Origin: Ectothiorhodospiraceae bacterium
Lineage (GTDB): Bacteria; Pseudomonadota; Gammaproteobacteria; Nitrococcales; Halorhodospiraceae
NCBI GenBank assembly: GCA_003552625.1
Contig: PUNM01000075.1
Span: forward strand, 1-40,154
DNA length: 40,154 bases
Direction: 5' to 3'
Made by a program: the position numbers and the translations under genes. Shown one piece after another: positions 11,386 through 18,444 of the stretch. Numbering within the stretch: the first letter of the stretch is position 1; every line of letters starts with the position of its first letter. The notes beneath the pieces are model-generated. The model did no database searches and was not told where the DNA came from. It was given only the letters and a program-made list of their open reading frames with translations.

Positions 11386-11436
11386 GAGCGGGCGCGGCAA
11401 TCTGGCCGCTCGGTCCACTAGTCCAGGGAGGTGCCG

Positions 11437-12051
11437 ATGCTCCGGAGCCTGTCCTTTTTGTCCTGGATGCTCGTCCCGCTGGTTGCCGGCTTAATGGCCG
11501 CCTCTCCCGTGCTCGCCGATCGCGCCGAGCATGTGGAGCGCGCGGGCAAAGAGATTCCGAAAACCGTGGAGCACCCCGGTGCGGAGACACCGCTGCGCCT
11601 CAACGGAACCGGCGTGATGCGTCGCTATTTTCAGGATATCTACGTCGCCGCCCTGTATCTGCCGGAGCGCGAGCAGGAGGCGCAGGCCATCCTCGGCGCC
11701 GATGACCAGGTGCGGCGGCTGGAACTGCACTTTGTCTTCCGGCGTGTGGGTGGCGATCGTTTTATCAGCGAGTTTGAGAGCGGCATGGAGGAGAGCCTCT
11801 CCGGGGAGCGCCTCGAGGTTATGCGGACGGCCTTTGAGACCTACCGTGACGCCTTTGAAACCGATGTGGTGGACGGCGACGTCATCACCTACGACTATCA
11901 CCCCGGCGAAGGGACTCGGATCCTTCTCAATGGCGATGAGGTCGCGCACATAGAAGACCCTCTCTATTTCGAGGCGTTGCTTGCCATGTGGATTGGTGAG
12001 GACGCTGTCGATGGGGATATCCGGGACGGGCTGCTCGGCGTCGACGGATAA
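11437..12051 (+). CDS. Exported chalcone-isomerase-like domain protein
   Basis: The 204-residue protein has a signal peptide (hydrophobic about residues 8-22, likely cut after VLA at 27). A chalcone-isomerase-like fold follows, of the bacterial periplasmic type: LRLNGTGVMRRYFQDIYVAALYLPE, then VRRLELHFVFRRVGGDRF, and a C-terminal LYFEALLAMWIGEDAVDGDIRDGLLG. Bacterial members lack flavonoid chemistry and are thought to bind lipids or fatty acids, but the role is unproven. ATG 11437 is preferred over GTG 11431 because it follows AGGGAGG at a normal distance. The next gene starts 26 bases on but appears to have its own promoter. Confidence 0.85.
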   Translation: MLRSLSFLSWMLVPLVAGLMAASPVLADRAEHVERAGKEIPKTVEHPGAETPLRLNGTGVMRRYFQDIYVAALYLPEREQEAQAILGADDQVRRLELHFVFRRVGGDRFISEFESGMEESLSGERLEVMRTAFETYRDAFETDVVDGDVITYDYHPGEGTRILLNGDEVAHIEDPLYFEALLAMWIGEDAVDGDIRDGLLGVDG

Positions 12052-12070
12052 GCGGGTCCGCGGCTATAGT
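12041..12070 (+). promoter_or_regulatory. Predicted promoter giving a leaderless mRNA for the DnaE-like gene
   Basis: TCGACG (12041-12046; 4/6 to TTGACA) and TATAGT (12065-12070) have an 18-bp spacer. The -10 ends six bases before the ATG at 12077, so transcription would start at or next to the start codon. There is no Shine-Dalgarno sequence, which fits a leaderless message. Confidence 0.42.
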
Positions 12071-12076
12071 CGATGC

Positions 12077-13873
12077 ATGGACGACGATGCGACAACGCTG
12101 ATCTCTTTCCGCGGGGGTGCAATTGAGCGCGCCGCCTGGGATCGACTTTGGGACGCTGCCGACGGGGCCTGCGCGCGCCGGGCGCTGGGGAGTCGGCGTG
12201 AGCGCTATCGGCGTCGTGTCCAGGAAGAGATGGCTGCCTTTGCCCAGCTGGGCCTGGAACCCGGGGTTCTTCTCGAGGTCTCCTGGCTGGTCGGCGATCT
12301 ACGGGGGCGTGGTGTCACGTTCGGGCCCGGGTACGGGCCGCAGTCGGGATCGCTGCTGCTGCACCTGCTGGGCCTGAACGGCGTCGATCCTCTCGATCAC
12401 GGTCTGCCGTTTCTCGGTTTCGGTCGGGAGCTGGAGGCGCGCCGACTCCATCTGCGCGTGGCGAGTCGCGCCGAACAGGCGGAACTGGCGGCGGCGCTGC
12501 GCAAGTGGGGACAGGCTGATCCGCGTTTCGCAAATGATGAGCGGACGCTTGAAGTCGTCATCGGTCGCGACCCTGGGCTCGCCCTGACCCGGGAGATGGC
12601 GCGCATGGCCGAGCAGGCCAGCGGTGGTCACTCCTGCGATCCGCTGCACTGGGTCTACCCCTGGGACGATCCGGAGACGCTGCGGCTGATTGCCCGCGGG
12701 GAGACCGAAGGCATCCCGCAACTCGATGGTGAGCAGCTTCGGGAGGCCTTGCGGGCAGCCGCCCCGCGCACGCTCGATGAGGTGATCCAGGTGGTGGTTG
12801 CCACGCGCGACGCCGGTCCGCACGGGCTGCGTGATCGTTATCTGGCGGCACGCAGCGGTGTAGAACGCCCGGCGCTGCCCCATCCCGAGCTCGAGGAAGT
12901 GTTGGCATCCACGGCCAATGTCTGGCTTTTCCGGGAGCAGGTGGTGATCGCGGTGGCCCGTCTGGCGGGATGCTCGAGCGAGCAGGCCGTCCGCTCGGTG
13001 CAGCGCCTCTCGGAGGAGGGGAGCGAGGCGCGGGAAGGTTCCTATTCCCAGCAGTTGGCCGAGCGGGTGGCGGAAAGGTGCTCGGTGCCCTACGCCCGCG
13101 GCCTGTACCTGGTGCGCAGCCTTCGCCAATCGCTGGCGCAGGTGGTGGATCGCAGCGCGGTCCTGGCCGAGGTAACCGAAGCGTACCGCCAGGCATACTA
13201 CAAAGCCCGCTATCCTGCGGCTTTCCAGGCTGCACGAATGAACGCATGCCTGGCTCAGGTCTCCCCTCGGCACGGATTGCGCTATATGGCCCGCGGCGGT
13301 GTCAGTGCCCGGTGCCCTCATCGGGAGGCCGTGATCGCCCTGTGCCGGGAGGCGGTGCGTGACGGGCTGACGGTGCTCCCGCCGGACGTTAATCGTAGTC
13401 GCTGGGGGTTTCAGGCAGAAGATCGAAATTCTCTACGGTTTGGTCTTGGGCTCATTGCCGGAATCGATCGTAGCGCTGCGGAACGACTCGCAGCACGGCG
13501 TCGTGGCAGTGACTATCGAAGCCTGATGGATCTGGTGGTGCGCGGGTTCGATGGCGCAGCCCGCATCGACCAGATCGAGCCCCTGATCTTCTCCGGTGCC
13601 TTGGGAGATTTTGGTCGTGATCGCTGGGCGCTGCGCCGCGAGCTCGACCAGGTTCGGCAGCCGCGGCGGGCGTGGCAGAACGCGTACGCGTCCTCCCGGG
13701 GGGCAGGGTCTGATGGTTTCCCCGAACTTCGCGGCCCCGAGGGGTGGCACGGGGAGAGTTCAGCGGAGGGCTGGGGCTTTCAGCGGGAGTTGGATGTCCT
13801 CGGCTGCGTCCCGTCCCGTCAGTATTTTCCGGAGCCTGCTGCCGAGTCCGAACGCCTCCGCCCGGTGCGCTGA
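12077..13873 (+). CDS. DnaE-like pseudo-polymerase lacking PHP domain and catalytic aspartates
   Basis: The 598-residue protein aligns by eye with the middle of DNA polymerase III alpha. Residues ~48-113 match the start of the palm (FGPGYGPQSGSLLLHLLGL..DPLDHGLPF versus the DnaE GPGRGSGAGSL..DPL..LLF region). ~198-245 match the segment usually reading VFQLESRGM..ALVALFRPG. ~270-312 match the YQEQVMQIA region (here WLFREQVVIAVARLAG). ~368-390 match the YQTxxLKAxYPAEF region (here YRQAYYKARYPAAFQAA). ~432-510 match the helix-hairpin-helix part (LPPDVNRSRWGF, LRFGLGLIAGI, EPLIFSGALGDFG). ~562-588 match the conserved segment ending the HhH part. The PDFDVDF block with two catalytic Asp and the KFDFLGLR block with the third are gone, as are the N-terminal PHP domain and the C-terminal OB/tau-binding region. 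The frame is uninterrupted, so it appears to be a maintained non-catalytic paralogue. ATG 12077 has no clear ribosome-binding site. Confidence 0.78.
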   Translation: MDDDATTLISFRGGAIERAAWDRLWDAADGACARRALGSRRERYRRRVQEEMAAFAQLGLEPGVLLEVSWLVGDLRGRGVTFGPGYGPQSGSLLLHLLGLNGVDPLDHGLPFLGFGRELEARRLHLRVASRAEQAELAAALRKWGQADPRFANDERTLEVVIGRDPGLALTREMARMAEQASGGHSCDPLHWVYPWDDPETLRLIARGETEGIPQLDGEQLREALRAAAPRTLDEVIQVVVATRDAGPHGLRDRYLAARSGVERPALPHPELEEVLASTANVWLFREQVVIAVARLAGCSSEQAVRSVQRLSEEGSEAREGSYSQQLAERVAERCSVPYARGLYLVRSLRQSLAQVVDRSAVLAEVTEAYRQAYYKARYPAAFQAARMNACLAQVSPRHGLRYMARGGVSARCPHREAVIALCREAVRDGLTVLPPDVNRSRWGFQAEDRNSLRFGLGLIAGIDRSAAERLAARRRGSDYRSLMDLVVRGFDGAARIDQIEPLIFSGALGDFGRDRWALRRELDQVRQPRRAWQNAYASSRGAGSDGFPELRGPEGWHGESSAEGWGFQRELDVLGCVPSRQYFPEPAAESERLRPVR

Positions 13874-14217
13874 AATGCGGCGGGGCTTGAATTCGCAGCC
13901 CAACTGTCTCACAGTATAGCGACGCTGGCGGTCGCAGGGCGGCCGCATAGGCATGAAAAGGAAGATGCCGAGACCCGGAGTCGCAGGACGGCCCGCTGGC
14001 TGGCTCGGCATCGTCAAACGGGCTGAGGCCCCTGTCCGAGACACGCCCGCCGGTGTGCGGGCGCATGCCGCGAAAATCCATCGGAAGCAGTAGAGAGGCA
14101 ACCACAACGTAACCTACCTAGCGGTACCGGTGACGCGGAGTCTCCGATTCCGATCCGGAGAGATGTATCCATGGCGCGCGTGCGCCGGGACAGTCCATCA
14201 CCAAGCAGAGGTGAGTT
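13874..14217 (+). promoter_or_regulatory. Gene-free 344-bp leader with hairpins upstream of the betaine genes
   Basis: No protein gene is supported here. A possible promoter is TTCGCA (13892-13897), 17 bp, TATAGC (13915-13920). Downstream are several inverted repeats. GATGCCGAG (13964-13972) pairs with 14004-14012. CGCCCGC (14044-14050) pairs with 14057-14063. TCTCCG (14141-14146) pairs with CGGAGA (14156-14161). GGCGC (14173-14177) pairs with 14182-14186. An imperfect direct repeat around GTCGCAGG.CGGCC occurs at about 13931-13945 and 13980-13995. The gsmt ribosome-binding site (AGAGGTGAG) is at the end. If the promoter is real, the untranslated leader is near 290 bases, long enough for RNA-based control. 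The structure is seen in the sequence; regulation is inference. Confidence 0.5.
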
Positions 14218-15024
14218 ATGAGTGTTCAGACTGAGCAGGACTTCGGGGCGGACCCGACCAAGGTTCGGGACACCGACCACTACACGGAAGAGTACGTTGA
14301 CGGCTTCGTCGACAAGTGGGACGACCTCATCGACTGGGATAGCCGTGCCAAGAGCGAGGGTGATTTCTTCATCGAGGAGCTCAAGAAGCGCGGGGCCAAG
14401 CGCGTGCTCGACGTCGCAACCGGTACGGGTTTCCACTCGGTTCGCCTGCGCGAGGCCGGTTTCGAGGTCGTGAGCGCTGACGGCAGCGCCGAGATGCTGG
14501 CCAAGGCGTTTGAAAATGGCCGAAAACGCGGTCATATCCTGCGCACCGTCCAGGTTGACTGGCGGTGGCTGAACCAGGATATCCACGGTCGCTACGATGC
14601 CATCATCTGCCTCGGCAACTCCTTTACCCACCTCTTTAACGAACGCGACCGCCGCAAGACCCTCGCCGAGTTCTACTCCGCCCTCAATCACGACGGCGTC
14701 CTGATCCTGGACCAGCGCAACTACGACGGCATCCTGGATCACGGCTACGACTCCAGCCACACCTACTATTACTGCGGCGATGATGTCTCCGTGTATCCGG
14801 AGCACGTGGACGACGGGCTGGCGCGGTTCAAGTACGACTTTTCCGACGGGTCGACCTACTACCTGAACATGTTCCCGCTGCGTAAGGAGTACACGCGGCG
14901 GTTGATGCATGAGGTCGGCTTCCAGCACATCGATACCTACGGCGACTTCAAGGAGACCTACCGCGACGCGGACCCGGACTTCTTCATTCACGTCGCCGAG
15001 AAAGCGTATCGGGAGGAGGACTGA
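14218..15024 (+). CDS. Glycine/sarcosine N-methyltransferase (betaine synthesis)
   Basis: The 268-residue cytosolic class I methyltransferase makes sarcosine and then dimethylglycine from glycine with two SAM, the first part of de novo glycine betaine synthesis. The N-terminal sequence EQDFGADPTKVRDTDHYTEE and the core closely match the Ectothiorhodospira halochloris GSMT as I remember it. SAM motif I is VLDVATGTG (63-71); ICLGNSFTHLF, DQRNYDGILDHGYDSSH and DPDFFIHVAEK are family signatures. The protein is highly acidic, as in halophile enzymes. It is the first gene of the unit; SDMT starts three bases after its stop, with its GGAGGAGGA ribosome site inside this gene's end. Regulation by salt is expected from the pathway but not shown by sequence. 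Confidence 0.97.
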   Translation: MSVQTEQDFGADPTKVRDTDHYTEEYVDGFVDKWDDLIDWDSRAKSEGDFFIEELKKRGAKRVLDVATGTGFHSVRLREAGFEVVSADGSAEMLAKAFENGRKRGHILRTVQVDWRWLNQDIHGRYDAIICLGNSFTHLFNERDRRKTLAEFYSALNHDGVLILDQRNYDGILDHGYDSSHTYYYCGDDVSVYPEHVDDGLARFKYDFSDGSTYYLNMFPLRKEYTRRLMHEVGFQHIDTYGDFKETYRDADPDFFIHVAEKAYREED

Positions 15025-15027
15025 TTC

Positions 15028-15864
15028 ATGAGTCGGTACAACGACGAGGCCATTGAGACGGCCCGCCAGTACTACAACAGCGAGGACGCTGACAACTTCT
15101 ACTACCACATCTGGGGTGGTGAGGACCTCCACGTCGGGATCTACCAGGACGACGAGGAGTCGATCTTTGATGCCAGCCGCCGGACGACCGCGCGGATGGC
15201 GTCAAAGCTGAAGAACCTCAGTGCCGACAGCTACGTACTCGACGTCGGCGCCGGCTACGGCGGTGTGGCGCGCTATCTGGCGCACACGTACGGCTGCCGC
15301 GTGGTCGCTCTCAATCTGTCTGAGCGGGAGAACGAGCGTGGCCGGCAGATGAACAAGGAGCAGGGCGTCGATCACCTGATCGAGGTCGTGGACGGGGCAT
15401 TCGAGGATATCCCCTACGAGGCCTCGACCTTCGACGTGGTCTGGTGCCAGGACTCGTTCCTGCACAGCGGAGACCGGCCCCGCGTGATGAGCGAGGTCGC
15501 CCGCGTGCTCAAGCCCGGCGGGGAGTTCATCTTCACGGACCCGATGCAGGCTGACGACTGCCCGGACGGAGTCCTGCAGCCGATCCTCGACCGGATCCAT
15601 CTTTCCACGATGGGGTCCCCGAGCTTCTACCAGGAGGAGCTGCGCAAGCACGGCCTGGAGCTGCTCGAGTTCGAAGACAATACCCCGCACCTTCCCCGGC
15701 ACTACGGGCGTGTCCATAAGGAGCTTGAGCGCCGCCAGCCGGAACTGGACGGGATGGTCTCCGACGAGTACATCGCCCGCATGAAGAAAGGGCTGCAGCA
15801 TTGGGTCGAGGGTGGCAACAACGGCTACTTGGCCTGGGGCATTTTCCACTTCCAGAAGAACTGA
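15028..15864 (+). CDS. Sarcosine/dimethylglycine N-methyltransferase (betaine synthesis)
   Basis: The 278-residue class I methyltransferase completes betaine synthesis (sarcosine to dimethylglycine to glycine betaine), using one or two SAM. SAM motif I is VLDVGAGYGG (70-79); the motif II/III region reads VWCQDSFLHSG and the acceptor-loop region FTDPMQADDC. It ends LAWGIFHFQK, as in known SDMT proteins. It is tightly coupled to GSMT. A hairpin with a T-rich tail lies between this gene and metK, so betaine enzymes and SAM-cycle enzymes may be made in different amounts from the same promoter. The gene is acidic and GC-rich like its partner, with no sign of recent transfer in composition. Confidence 0.97.
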   Translation: MSRYNDEAIETARQYYNSEDADNFYYHIWGGEDLHVGIYQDDEESIFDASRRTTARMASKLKNLSADSYVLDVGAGYGGVARYLAHTYGCRVVALNLSERENERGRQMNKEQGVDHLIEVVDGAFEDIPYEASTFDVVWCQDSFLHSGDRPRVMSEVARVLKPGGEFIFTDPMQADDCPDGVLQPILDRIHLSTMGSPSFYQEELRKHGLELLEFEDNTPHLPRHYGRVHKELERRQPELDGMVSDEYIARMKKGLQHWVEGGNNGYLAWGIFHFQKN

Positions 15865-15878
15865 TCACAGTTCGCCCC

Positions 15879-15925
15879 AAGCCCCTGTGGCGCTGGCCAT
15901 CGGCCGCGCGGCGGGGGCTTTGTTT
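15879..15925 (+). terminator. Terminator or attenuator between SDMT and metK
   Basis: AAGCCCC (15879-15885) pairs with GGGGCTT (15914-15920). An inner helix GCGC-GGCC/GGCC-GCGC (15890-15898 with 15902-15909, one bulge) caps it, and TGTTT follows. It lies 14 bases after SDMT and 33 bases before metK. The T-run is interrupted, so termination is probably partial. Confidence 0.72.
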
Positions 15926-15957
15926 CAATGTCGAATCCTGAGCGAGAAGGAGAAACC

Positions 15958-17124
15958 ATGAGCAAGCGCTACCTCTTTACCTCCGAGTCGGTGTCCGAGG
16001 GCCACCCGGACAAGATGGCCGACCAGATTTCGGACGCCCTGCTGGACGAGTTCCTCAAGCAGGATCCGAAGTCCCGTGTTGCCGCCGAGACCATGATCCA
16101 GACCGGAATGGTCATCGTGGCCGGGGAGATCAAGAGCACGGCCAAGATCAATGTCGAGCCGCTGGTCCGCGACGTCGTGCGCGATATCGGCTACACCAGC
16201 TCCGACATGGGCTTCGATGCCGACACCTGCGCCGTTCTCAACGCACTGGGTGAGCAGTCCCCGGACATCAACCAGGGCGTTGACCGCGCCAAGGAAGAGG
16301 AGCAGGGCGCTGGCGACCAGGGCCTGATGTTTGGCTACGCCACCAATGAGACCAACGTGCTCATGCCGGCGGCCATTCACTACTCGCACCTTCTGGTCAA
16401 GCGCCAGTCCGAGGTTCGCAACTCCGGCAAGCTGCCGTGGCTGCGCCCGGACGCCAAGAGCCAGGTCACTTTCGCGTACGAAGGCGACAAGATCGTCGGC
16501 TGCGACGCGGTAGTCCTCTCCACCCAGCACGATGAGTCGGTGGACCAAAAGACGGTCCACGAGGGCGTGATGGAAGAGATCATCAAGCCGGTCCTGGGTG
16601 ATACTGGCTGGCTTACCGCTGACACGAACTACCACATCAACCCGACCGGGCGCTTCGTCACTGGCGGTCCGTTGGGCGACTGTGGCCTGACCGGCCGTAA
16701 GATCATCGTCGACACCTACGGCGGCATGGGCCGTCACGGCGGCGGTGCCTTCTCGGGCAAGGACCCGTCCAAGGTGGACCGTTCCGCGGCCTACGCCGGC
16801 CGTTACGTGGCCAAGAACATCGTGGCCGCCGGCCTTGCGGACCGCTGCGAGGTCCAGCTCTCCTACGCCATCGGCGTGGCCGAGCCGACCTCCGTCAATG
16901 TTGAGACCTTCGGTACTGGCAAGGTCGACGACGAGACCATCAATAAGCTCGTCCGCGACAACTTCGACCTGCGCCCGTACGGCATCCTCAAGATGCTGGG
17001 CCTCGAGCAGCCGATCTACCGCCCGACGGCGGCCTACGGGCACTTTGGTCGCGAGGACATCGACGTGCCGTGGGAGCGTACCGACCGCGCTGCCGCCCTT
17101 AAGGACGCCGCTGGTCTCAAGTAA
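15958..17124 (+). CDS. metK: S-adenosylmethionine synthetase
   Basis: The 388-residue enzyme makes SAM from methionine and ATP. Signature blocks are all present: [15 protein letters not shown] at the N terminus, [12 protein letters not shown], and the P-loop-like [22 protein letters not shown] 15958 follows GAAGGAG and gives the usual [15 protein letters not shown] terminus; the in-frame ATG at 15928 is rejected. Location next to the betaine methyltransferases points to supplying the three SAM consumed per betaine. ahcY follows after 27 bases. Confidence 0.98.
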
Positions 17125-17151
17125 CCGAATTACAAGGAGTCAAGTCACAGC

Positions 17152-18444
17152 ATGAGTAACCAAGACTACAAGGTAGCGGACATCTCCCTGGCCGATTGGG
17201 GTCGTAAGGAGATCAATATCGCCGAGAGCGAGATGCCGGGTCTGATGGAGACCCGGCGTGAGTATGGCCCGCAGCAGCCGCTGAAGGGCGCTCGCATCGC
17301 CGGCTGCCTTCACATGACCATCCAGACGGCAGTGCTGATCGAGACGCTCCAGGAGCTCGGCGCCGAGGTCCGTTGGTCCTCCTGCAACATCTTCTCGACG
17401 CAGGACCAGGCCGCAGCGGCGGTTGCCGCCAACGGCACGCCGGTCTTCGCCTGGAAGGGCGAGACCGAGGAGGAGTACTGGTGGTGCATCGATCAGACGA
17501 TCAACGGGCCGGACGGCTGGAAGCCGAACATGCTTCTGGACGACGGCGGCGACCTGACCGAGGTCATCCACAAGCAGTACCCGGAGCTGATGAAGGACAT
17601 CTACGGTGTCTCCGAGGAGACCACGACCGGTGTCCATCGCCTCTACGAGATGAGCCGTAAAGGCGAACTCGGGATGCCGGCGTTCAACGTGAACGACTCG
17701 GTCACCAAGTCCAAGTTCGACAACCTCTACGGCTGCCGTGAGTCGCTGGTCGATAGCATCAAGCGCGCCACCGACGTCATGATCGCCGGTAAGACCGCTG
17801 TCGTCTGCGGGTTTGGCGACGTGGGCAAGGGCTCCGCCCAGTCCCTGCGCGGTCTGGGTGCCCAGGTCTGGGTGACCGAGGTCGATCCGATCTGTGCGCT
17901 CCAGGCGTCCATGGACGGCTACAAGGTCGTCACCATGGAGGAGGCTGCGGCGGTGGCGGATATCTTCGTCACGGCGACGGGCAACTACAATGTGATCACC
18001 CACGATCACATGAAGGCCATGAAGAACGAGGCGATCGTCTGCAACATCGGGCACTTCGACAACGAGATCGATGTGGCGAGCCTCAAGCAGTACAAGTGGG
18101 ACGAGATCAAGCCCCAGGTCGATCACATTGAGTTCCCGGATGGCAAGAAGATCATCCTGCTGGCTGAGGGTCGTCTGGTGAACCTGGGCTGCGCGACCGG
18201 CCACCCCTCCTTCGTGATGTCCAACTCGTTCACGAACCAGACGCTTGCCCAGATGGAGCTGTTCAACAACCCGGGCAAGTACGAGAAGGACGTCTACGTG
18301 CTGCCCAAGCACCTGGACGAGAAGGTCGCTGCGCTGCACCTGGGCCGTGTCGACGCCCACTTGACCCGTCTCAGCCAGGAGCAGGCCGATTACATCGGCG
18401 TCTCGGTCGACGGGCCGTACAAGCCGGAGTGGTATCGCTACTAA
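17152..18444 (+). CDS. ahcY: Adenosylhomocysteinase (SAH hydrolase)
   Basis: The 430-residue NAD-dependent enzyme splits S-adenosylhomocysteine to adenosine and homocysteine, relieving product inhibition of GSMT/SDMT. Visible motifs are [44 protein letters not shown] (substrate/cofactor Lys), the NAD fold [25 protein letters not shown], and the C terminus PYKPEWYRY. The ribosome site is AAGGAGT. The 27-base gap to metK leaves no room for a separate SAH riboswitch, so it is probably read through from metK. Confidence 0.98.

Follow-up and report, generated by a model that had tools for sequence, protein, structure and literature searches.

The window analysed here, a 40,154-nucleotide stretch of DNA from a lineage of the salt-loving Halorhodospira (Halorhodospiraceae), carries an uninterrupted reading frame for a 598-residue protein that is derived from a DnaE-type DNA polymerase and that we call the pseudo-polymerase. 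It is preceded by a promoter-like sequence and followed by a structured RNA element and a run of genes that, by recognition of their sequences, we take to be genes for synthesis of the salt protectant glycine betaine (Table 1). A TATAGT, TATATT, or TAAATT box occupies the equivalent position in several orthologues, and it is possible, judging by its distance from the start codon, that the mRNA is a leaderless transcript. Between tadA and the pseudo-polymerase gene lies another open reading frame (11431-12051) whose product looks secreted and which, judged by eye, presumably belongs to a chalcone-isomerase-like family. Among the compared genomes, only H. neutriphila has a relative of this frame, where it likewise adjoins the pseudo-polymerase gene.

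Table 1. Features of the pseudo-polymerase locus (positions in the window; residues numbered in the 598-residue protein).
Feature	Positions	Strand	Basis or remark
Promoter-like TCGACG-18-TATAGT	12041..12070	+	-10 box 6 nt before the pseudo-polymerase ATG
Pseudo-polymerase gene, stand-alone DnaE-derived protein, 598 aa	12077..13873	+	Pfam, orthologues, profile comparison
N-terminal extension, residues 1-38, FRGGALERAA across the family	12077..12190	+	
Palm part 1, residues 39-136, best-conserved region	12191..12484	+	
H125-L126-R127, probable site of D401-x-D403	12449..12457	+	Joint alignment
Palm part 2, residues 156-190; EVVIG strand, probable place of the KFDFLGL strand	12542..12646	+	
Fingers, residues 191-428	12647..13360	+	Pfam, model, alignment
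Helix-hairpin-helix (HhH) region, residues 429-526	13361..13654	+	Pfam, alignment
C-terminal tail, ending in FQRELDVLGCVPSRQYFP, like DnaE EKETLGLFLTGHP just ahead of the OB fold	13655..13870	+	
Covarying structured RNA between pseudo-polymerase and betaine genes	13922..14016	+	Covariance analysis
Betaine genes: glycine-sarcosine (GSMT) and sarcosine-dimethylglycine (SDMT) methyltransferases, MetK, SahH	14218..18444	+	Recognised by sequence (presumed)

The relationship to DnaE is evident from several searches. Pfam matches include DNA_pol3_finger (PF17657, 1.1e-20), HHH_6 (PF14579, 1.6e-19, residues 430-518), and, more weakly, DNA_pol3_alpha (NTPase/palm domain, 1.1e-6). Every polymerase match is to the C family, and there is no match to the Y-family IMS domain of Pfam. 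Many DnaE models in NCBIfam are matched at scores far under their cut-offs, and the sequences of solved DnaE structures in the PDB are matched at 6e-29. The profile search proposed in a sequence-only reading of this DNA gave a clear answer: when ten orthologues were compared with DnaE1, residues 39-528 aligned with DnaE1 324-921 at a probability of 99.9% (E 6e-32). The host genome also encodes DnaE1 of the ordinary kind, with 1200 codons open, as well as a DnaE2 of 1036 amino acids (L034 5342-8452). No ImuA or ImuB can be recognised next to the DnaE2 gene, which stands alone. The DnaE1 gene of H. neutriphila (L172 203-5122) is interrupted between its fingers and HhH regions by an intein that has a LAGLIDADG domain.

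Much of what makes DnaE a polymerase is gone. Pfam finds no PHP domain in the pseudo-polymerase, where merely 38 residues precede the palm, and no OB fold, the protein stopping ahead of the OB position. The C-terminal domain and the thumb are absent as well. In E. coli DnaE, the thumb spans about residues 433-510. The sequence-only reading had correctly listed the PHP, OB, and C-terminal parts as lost and had overlooked the thumb. It had also supposed that the catalytic PDFDVDF block was lost. In a joint alignment of the ten orthologues with DnaE1 and DnaE2, the catalytic residue D401 is replaced by H125 and D403 by R127 in all ten orthologues, and D555 falls inside a deletion. Two further alignments put gaps at the D401/D403 stretch rather than H and R, and none of the three places an aspartate at the D401, D403, or D555 positions. 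The aspartates are missing in all three alignments, and the strand, predicted at residues 123-128, has been rewritten rather than cleanly deleted; it is likely, from the joint alignment, that H125 and R127 are the equivalents of D401 and D403. In palm part 2, the preceding DnaE thumb is gone and no acidic residue is conserved.

Besides the catalytic residues, the motifs for dNTP and template are replaced in all ten orthologues. The GPGYGPQSGS motif, at first thought to be retained, is altered in that R362 has become Y86 in all ten orthologues and S364 has become P88 in nine. From the fingers of all ten proteins, the RPGP, RRAMGKK (R709/R710, GKK), and NKSH motifs have been lost. The hairpin glycine G842 of the HhH region is D464 in 10/10 orthologues, despite the PF14579 match there, and DNA binding through this element is not supported. 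A role as a beta-clamp interactor had been suggested, and a motif scan of the orthologues found no conserved QxxLF-type motif.

Structure prediction is consistent with this picture. AlphaFold given the orthologues alone returned a pLDDT of 55, with confidence confined to the fingers, whereas a 23-row alignment that included 16 DnaE rows drawn from viral contigs gave a pLDDT of 80 and a pTM of 0.80. The 23-row model superposes on mycobacterial DnaE1 with a Z score of 35.1 and, over 484 residues, on the E. coli alpha subunit, the comparison originally called for, with 32.7. DnaE chains in general score 27-35, PolC 18-20, and the best unrelated fold 3.9. Because the DnaE rows partly built in the agreement of the palm, the predicted palm-fingers-HhH match supports rather than proves the assignment. 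The proportion of invariant positions is 51% in palm part 1, 33% in the HhH region, 21% in the fingers, 3% in palm part 2, and 0% in the tail, where the count is depressed by one orthologue copy cut at a contig end. On these proportions, what selection guards is the palm face that once held the active site.

The pseudo-polymerase has a narrow distribution. Orthologues with 50-70% identity and no internal stop are present in eight of the nine genomes of the genus and in both genomes of a sister genus. This amounts to 10 of the 12 genomes of the family, the exceptions being a genus member that is 77% complete and a 99%-complete genome, G009. The survey of 54 genomes across the order found none in other families, and a class sample of 369 genomes yielded only ordinary DnaE proteins with open frames of 940-1246 amino acids. 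When about 85,000 GTDB species genomes were scanned with a sequence pattern, the hits came only from Halorhodospira and unclassified Ectothiorhodospiraceae. The family profile found no pseudo-polymerase among viral contigs; phage and plasmid matches are partial, are 25-29% identical among the matches listed, and are DnaE genes where annotated.

For the nearest orthologue pairs, the Nei-Gojobori dN/dS is 0.10-0.14, a level similar to that of XseA (0.14-0.19) and higher than that of GuaB (about 0.03-0.04) in comparable pairs from the same genomes; most other pseudo-polymerase pairs are near saturation. Because the orthologues in ten genomes are free of stops and these ratios are low, the gene is under purifying selection and is maintained. 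The proposal of a stand-alone, catalytically dead, and maintained DnaE paralogue is therefore upheld by Pfam, the orthologues, dN/dS, the structural model, the residue alignment, and the profile match alike. The protein also differs from DnaE1 in charge: isoelectric points of the orthologues range from 5.6 to 9.0 (8.1 in this genome), whereas that of DnaE1 is about 5.1 and those of most neighbours lie at 4.5-5.5. Basic values are also found for DnaE2 and XseA of the host genome.

The origin of the gene is less easily read. In a tree built from 50 sequences over 551 columns, the pseudo-polymerase branch is 3.1 substitutions per site long. It falls, though with low support, on the side of DnaE1, so long a branch not being placed with confidence. 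Constraining it to group with DnaE1 of the Halorhodospira family costs 0.6 log units and is not rejected (AU 0.54), and grouping it with DnaE2 is weaker, costing 10.4 log units, and is likewise not rejected (AU 0.097). On these tree comparisons, descent from DnaE1 is likely, and the simplest reading, which is not proven, would be a lineage-specific DnaE1 duplication followed by fast divergence.

The GSMT and SDMT genes come next downstream of the pseudo-polymerase gene and are co-directional with it in all ten genomes, and MetK and SahH follow as far as the contigs allow. Upstream, guaB-guaA-tadA is retained in about six of the ten genomes, and elsewhere the upstream genes differ. A close GSMT is also missing from both family genomes that lack the pseudo-polymerase, and 17 genomes of other families carry a close GSMT without it. 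The stretch that separates the pseudo-polymerase gene from the betaine genes, about 345-440 bases in all ten genomes, is strongly conserved and contains the RNA element. This element comprises 95 positions and 28 pairs. Of the cells in these pairs, 96.8% are paired, and nine pairs have changed on both sides; when the partners are slid as a control, pairing falls to 24-44%. Its covariance model finds one copy per genome in exactly the ten pseudo-polymerase genomes and nothing in the other 44 genomes of the order; the 17 other-family genomes with a close GSMT have none. Rfam offers no match even at E 10. Because of its position before the betaine genes, we suggest that the element is the leader of the betaine operon and a candidate regulatory RNA, although it might instead be a separate small RNA or the 3' end of the pseudo-polymerase mRNA. 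A second conserved hairpin (CGCCC...GGGCG, approximately 14042-14067) lies downstream in the same leader and becomes GCCTATGG/CCATAGGT in one sister-genus genome. Before the element, at 13886-13915, a promoter-like TTGAA(A/T) ... CA(C/G)AGTA sequence with unusual spacing is found in all ten genomes.

The evidence, which shows DnaE homology, missing residues and domains, a conserved sequence under purifying selection, and a restricted distribution, is best explained, we believe with a probability of roughly 0.6, by a DnaE-type copy, most likely of DnaE1, that has been kept for a non-catalytic task with its palm-fingers body serving as a binding module. Such a copy would date from the common ancestor that Halorhodospira shares with the sister genus. 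All three catalytic aspartates have been lost from it, together with the PHP domain, thumb, OB fold, C-terminal domain, and clamp motif. On this explanation, the palm face that once held the active site would now be the working surface for a partner, either protein or nucleic acid, much as in the case of ImuB, a dead Y-family polymerase retained as an adaptor. From its fixed place before the betaine operon, the protein may possibly have a local role in osmoadaptation. However, the conserved palm might instead signal a new catalytic activity, and the very long branch and the near saturation of dN/dS in most pairs also weigh against this explanation, as do the palm match partly built into the fold model and the basic isoelectric points of DnaE2 and XseA.

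A more specific possibility, to which we give only a low probability, is that the protein regulates the betaine operon by binding the leader RNA or the promoter and tuning expression of GSMT, SDMT, MetK, and SahH. It would account for a gene that stays adjacent and co-directional even where the upstream genes differ, for an intervening 28-pair RNA with an identical distribution, and for a basic isoelectric point that is unusual among the neighbours. However, gene, RNA, and operon might just be co-inherited in one clade in which local gene order is well kept anyway, as with guaB-guaA-tadA, and the leader could act without any protein. Furthermore, we know of no palm-fingers protein that serves as an operon regulator. 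The fuller version of this idea, in which the body of a replicative polymerase has turned regulator of a structured leader RNA (or promoter) and the two jointly control osmoprotectant synthesis, is somewhat more doubtful still.

It is rather unlikely that the protein instead assists or inhibits DnaE1, DnaE2, or DinB, whether at the fork or during translesion synthesis. Descent from DnaE and the precedent of ImuB as a dead polymerase adaptor speak for the idea, but the protein lacks the clamp motif, the PHP domain (epsilon site), the C-terminal domain (tau site), and the OB fold. The earlier suggestion of a translesion regulator fares no better, as the distribution of DnaE2 differs (three pseudo-polymerase genomes, 94-99% complete, have no DnaE2 match, and G009 has DnaE2 and no pseudo-polymerase) and no LexA-type box lies upstream near the start of the gene. 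SOS control was rejected on the grounds that CTGT-N8-ACAG matches occur no more often than by chance, with none at the pseudo-polymerase promoter. Partnership with DnaE2 and ImuB was likewise set aside given the phyletic mismatch and a host genome whose single Y-family gene is of DinB size.

A new catalytic or small-molecule site in the palm, formed by the conserved residues Y86, H125, R127, E133, Q134, and E136, is improbable. The palm is the best-conserved region and the replaced residues are invariant, but no enzyme motif is recognisable, and palm part 2, just 3% invariant, is unlike an active cleft. Least credible of all is a pseudogene in decay, since a shortened and catalytically dead gene of that kind would not be expected to be stop-free in ten genomes, with dN/dS well under 1 and invariant blocks.

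If the preferred reading of a retained binding module is correct, then the C family includes a pseudo-polymerase that is held by purifying selection and is best conserved where its active site used to be. Should the regulatory idea also be true, osmoprotectant synthesis would be governed jointly by the dead polymerase and the new RNA element. The pseudo-polymerase is open to testing in cultured Halorhodospira species. Dead relatives are familiar in the Y family, as with ImuB, whereas C-family proteins have been described as replicative or translesion enzymes. The excerpts of two surveys divide the C family into PolC and DnaE1-3 (PMC3919608, PMC12926913) and describe inactive relatives in other families and inactive PHP domains, with no dead C-family group. 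As far as these excerpts go, the C-family pseudo-polymerase is a kind named in neither, in agreement with the initial statement that no named family has such a layout; the trees of PMC12926913 were built, according to its excerpt, after strongly diverged or truncated sequences were removed. A DnaE paralogue near SOS genes appears in the excerpt of PMC3765255 and is not dead, and the main texts of the open-access literature yielded no inactive DnaE paralogue.

Among known systems, DnaE1, at about 20-28% identity, resembles the pseudo-polymerase both in sequence and in predicted fold from the start of the palm through the fingers to the HhH region, but is acidic rather than basic and has the PHP domain, thumb, aspartates, RPGP, RRAMGKK, and NKSH motifs, clamp motif, OB fold, and C-terminal domain that the pseudo-polymerase lacks. 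DnaE2 (ImuC) is likewise a basic C-family paralogue, but it keeps the thumb and the aspartates, and its distribution differs. ImuB, given as a dead polymerase adaptor in the excerpt of PMC12926913, is similar in outline as a retained dead polymerase relative. However, it is a Y-family protein whose partners are ImuA, DnaE2, and the clamp, and nothing of this applies to the pseudo-polymerase. The PolX-like proteins of Actinobacteria (PMC12926913) are also shortened polymerase relatives kept by selection, but these have kept the PHP nuclease and lost the polymerase, which is the reverse of the arrangement in the pseudo-polymerase.
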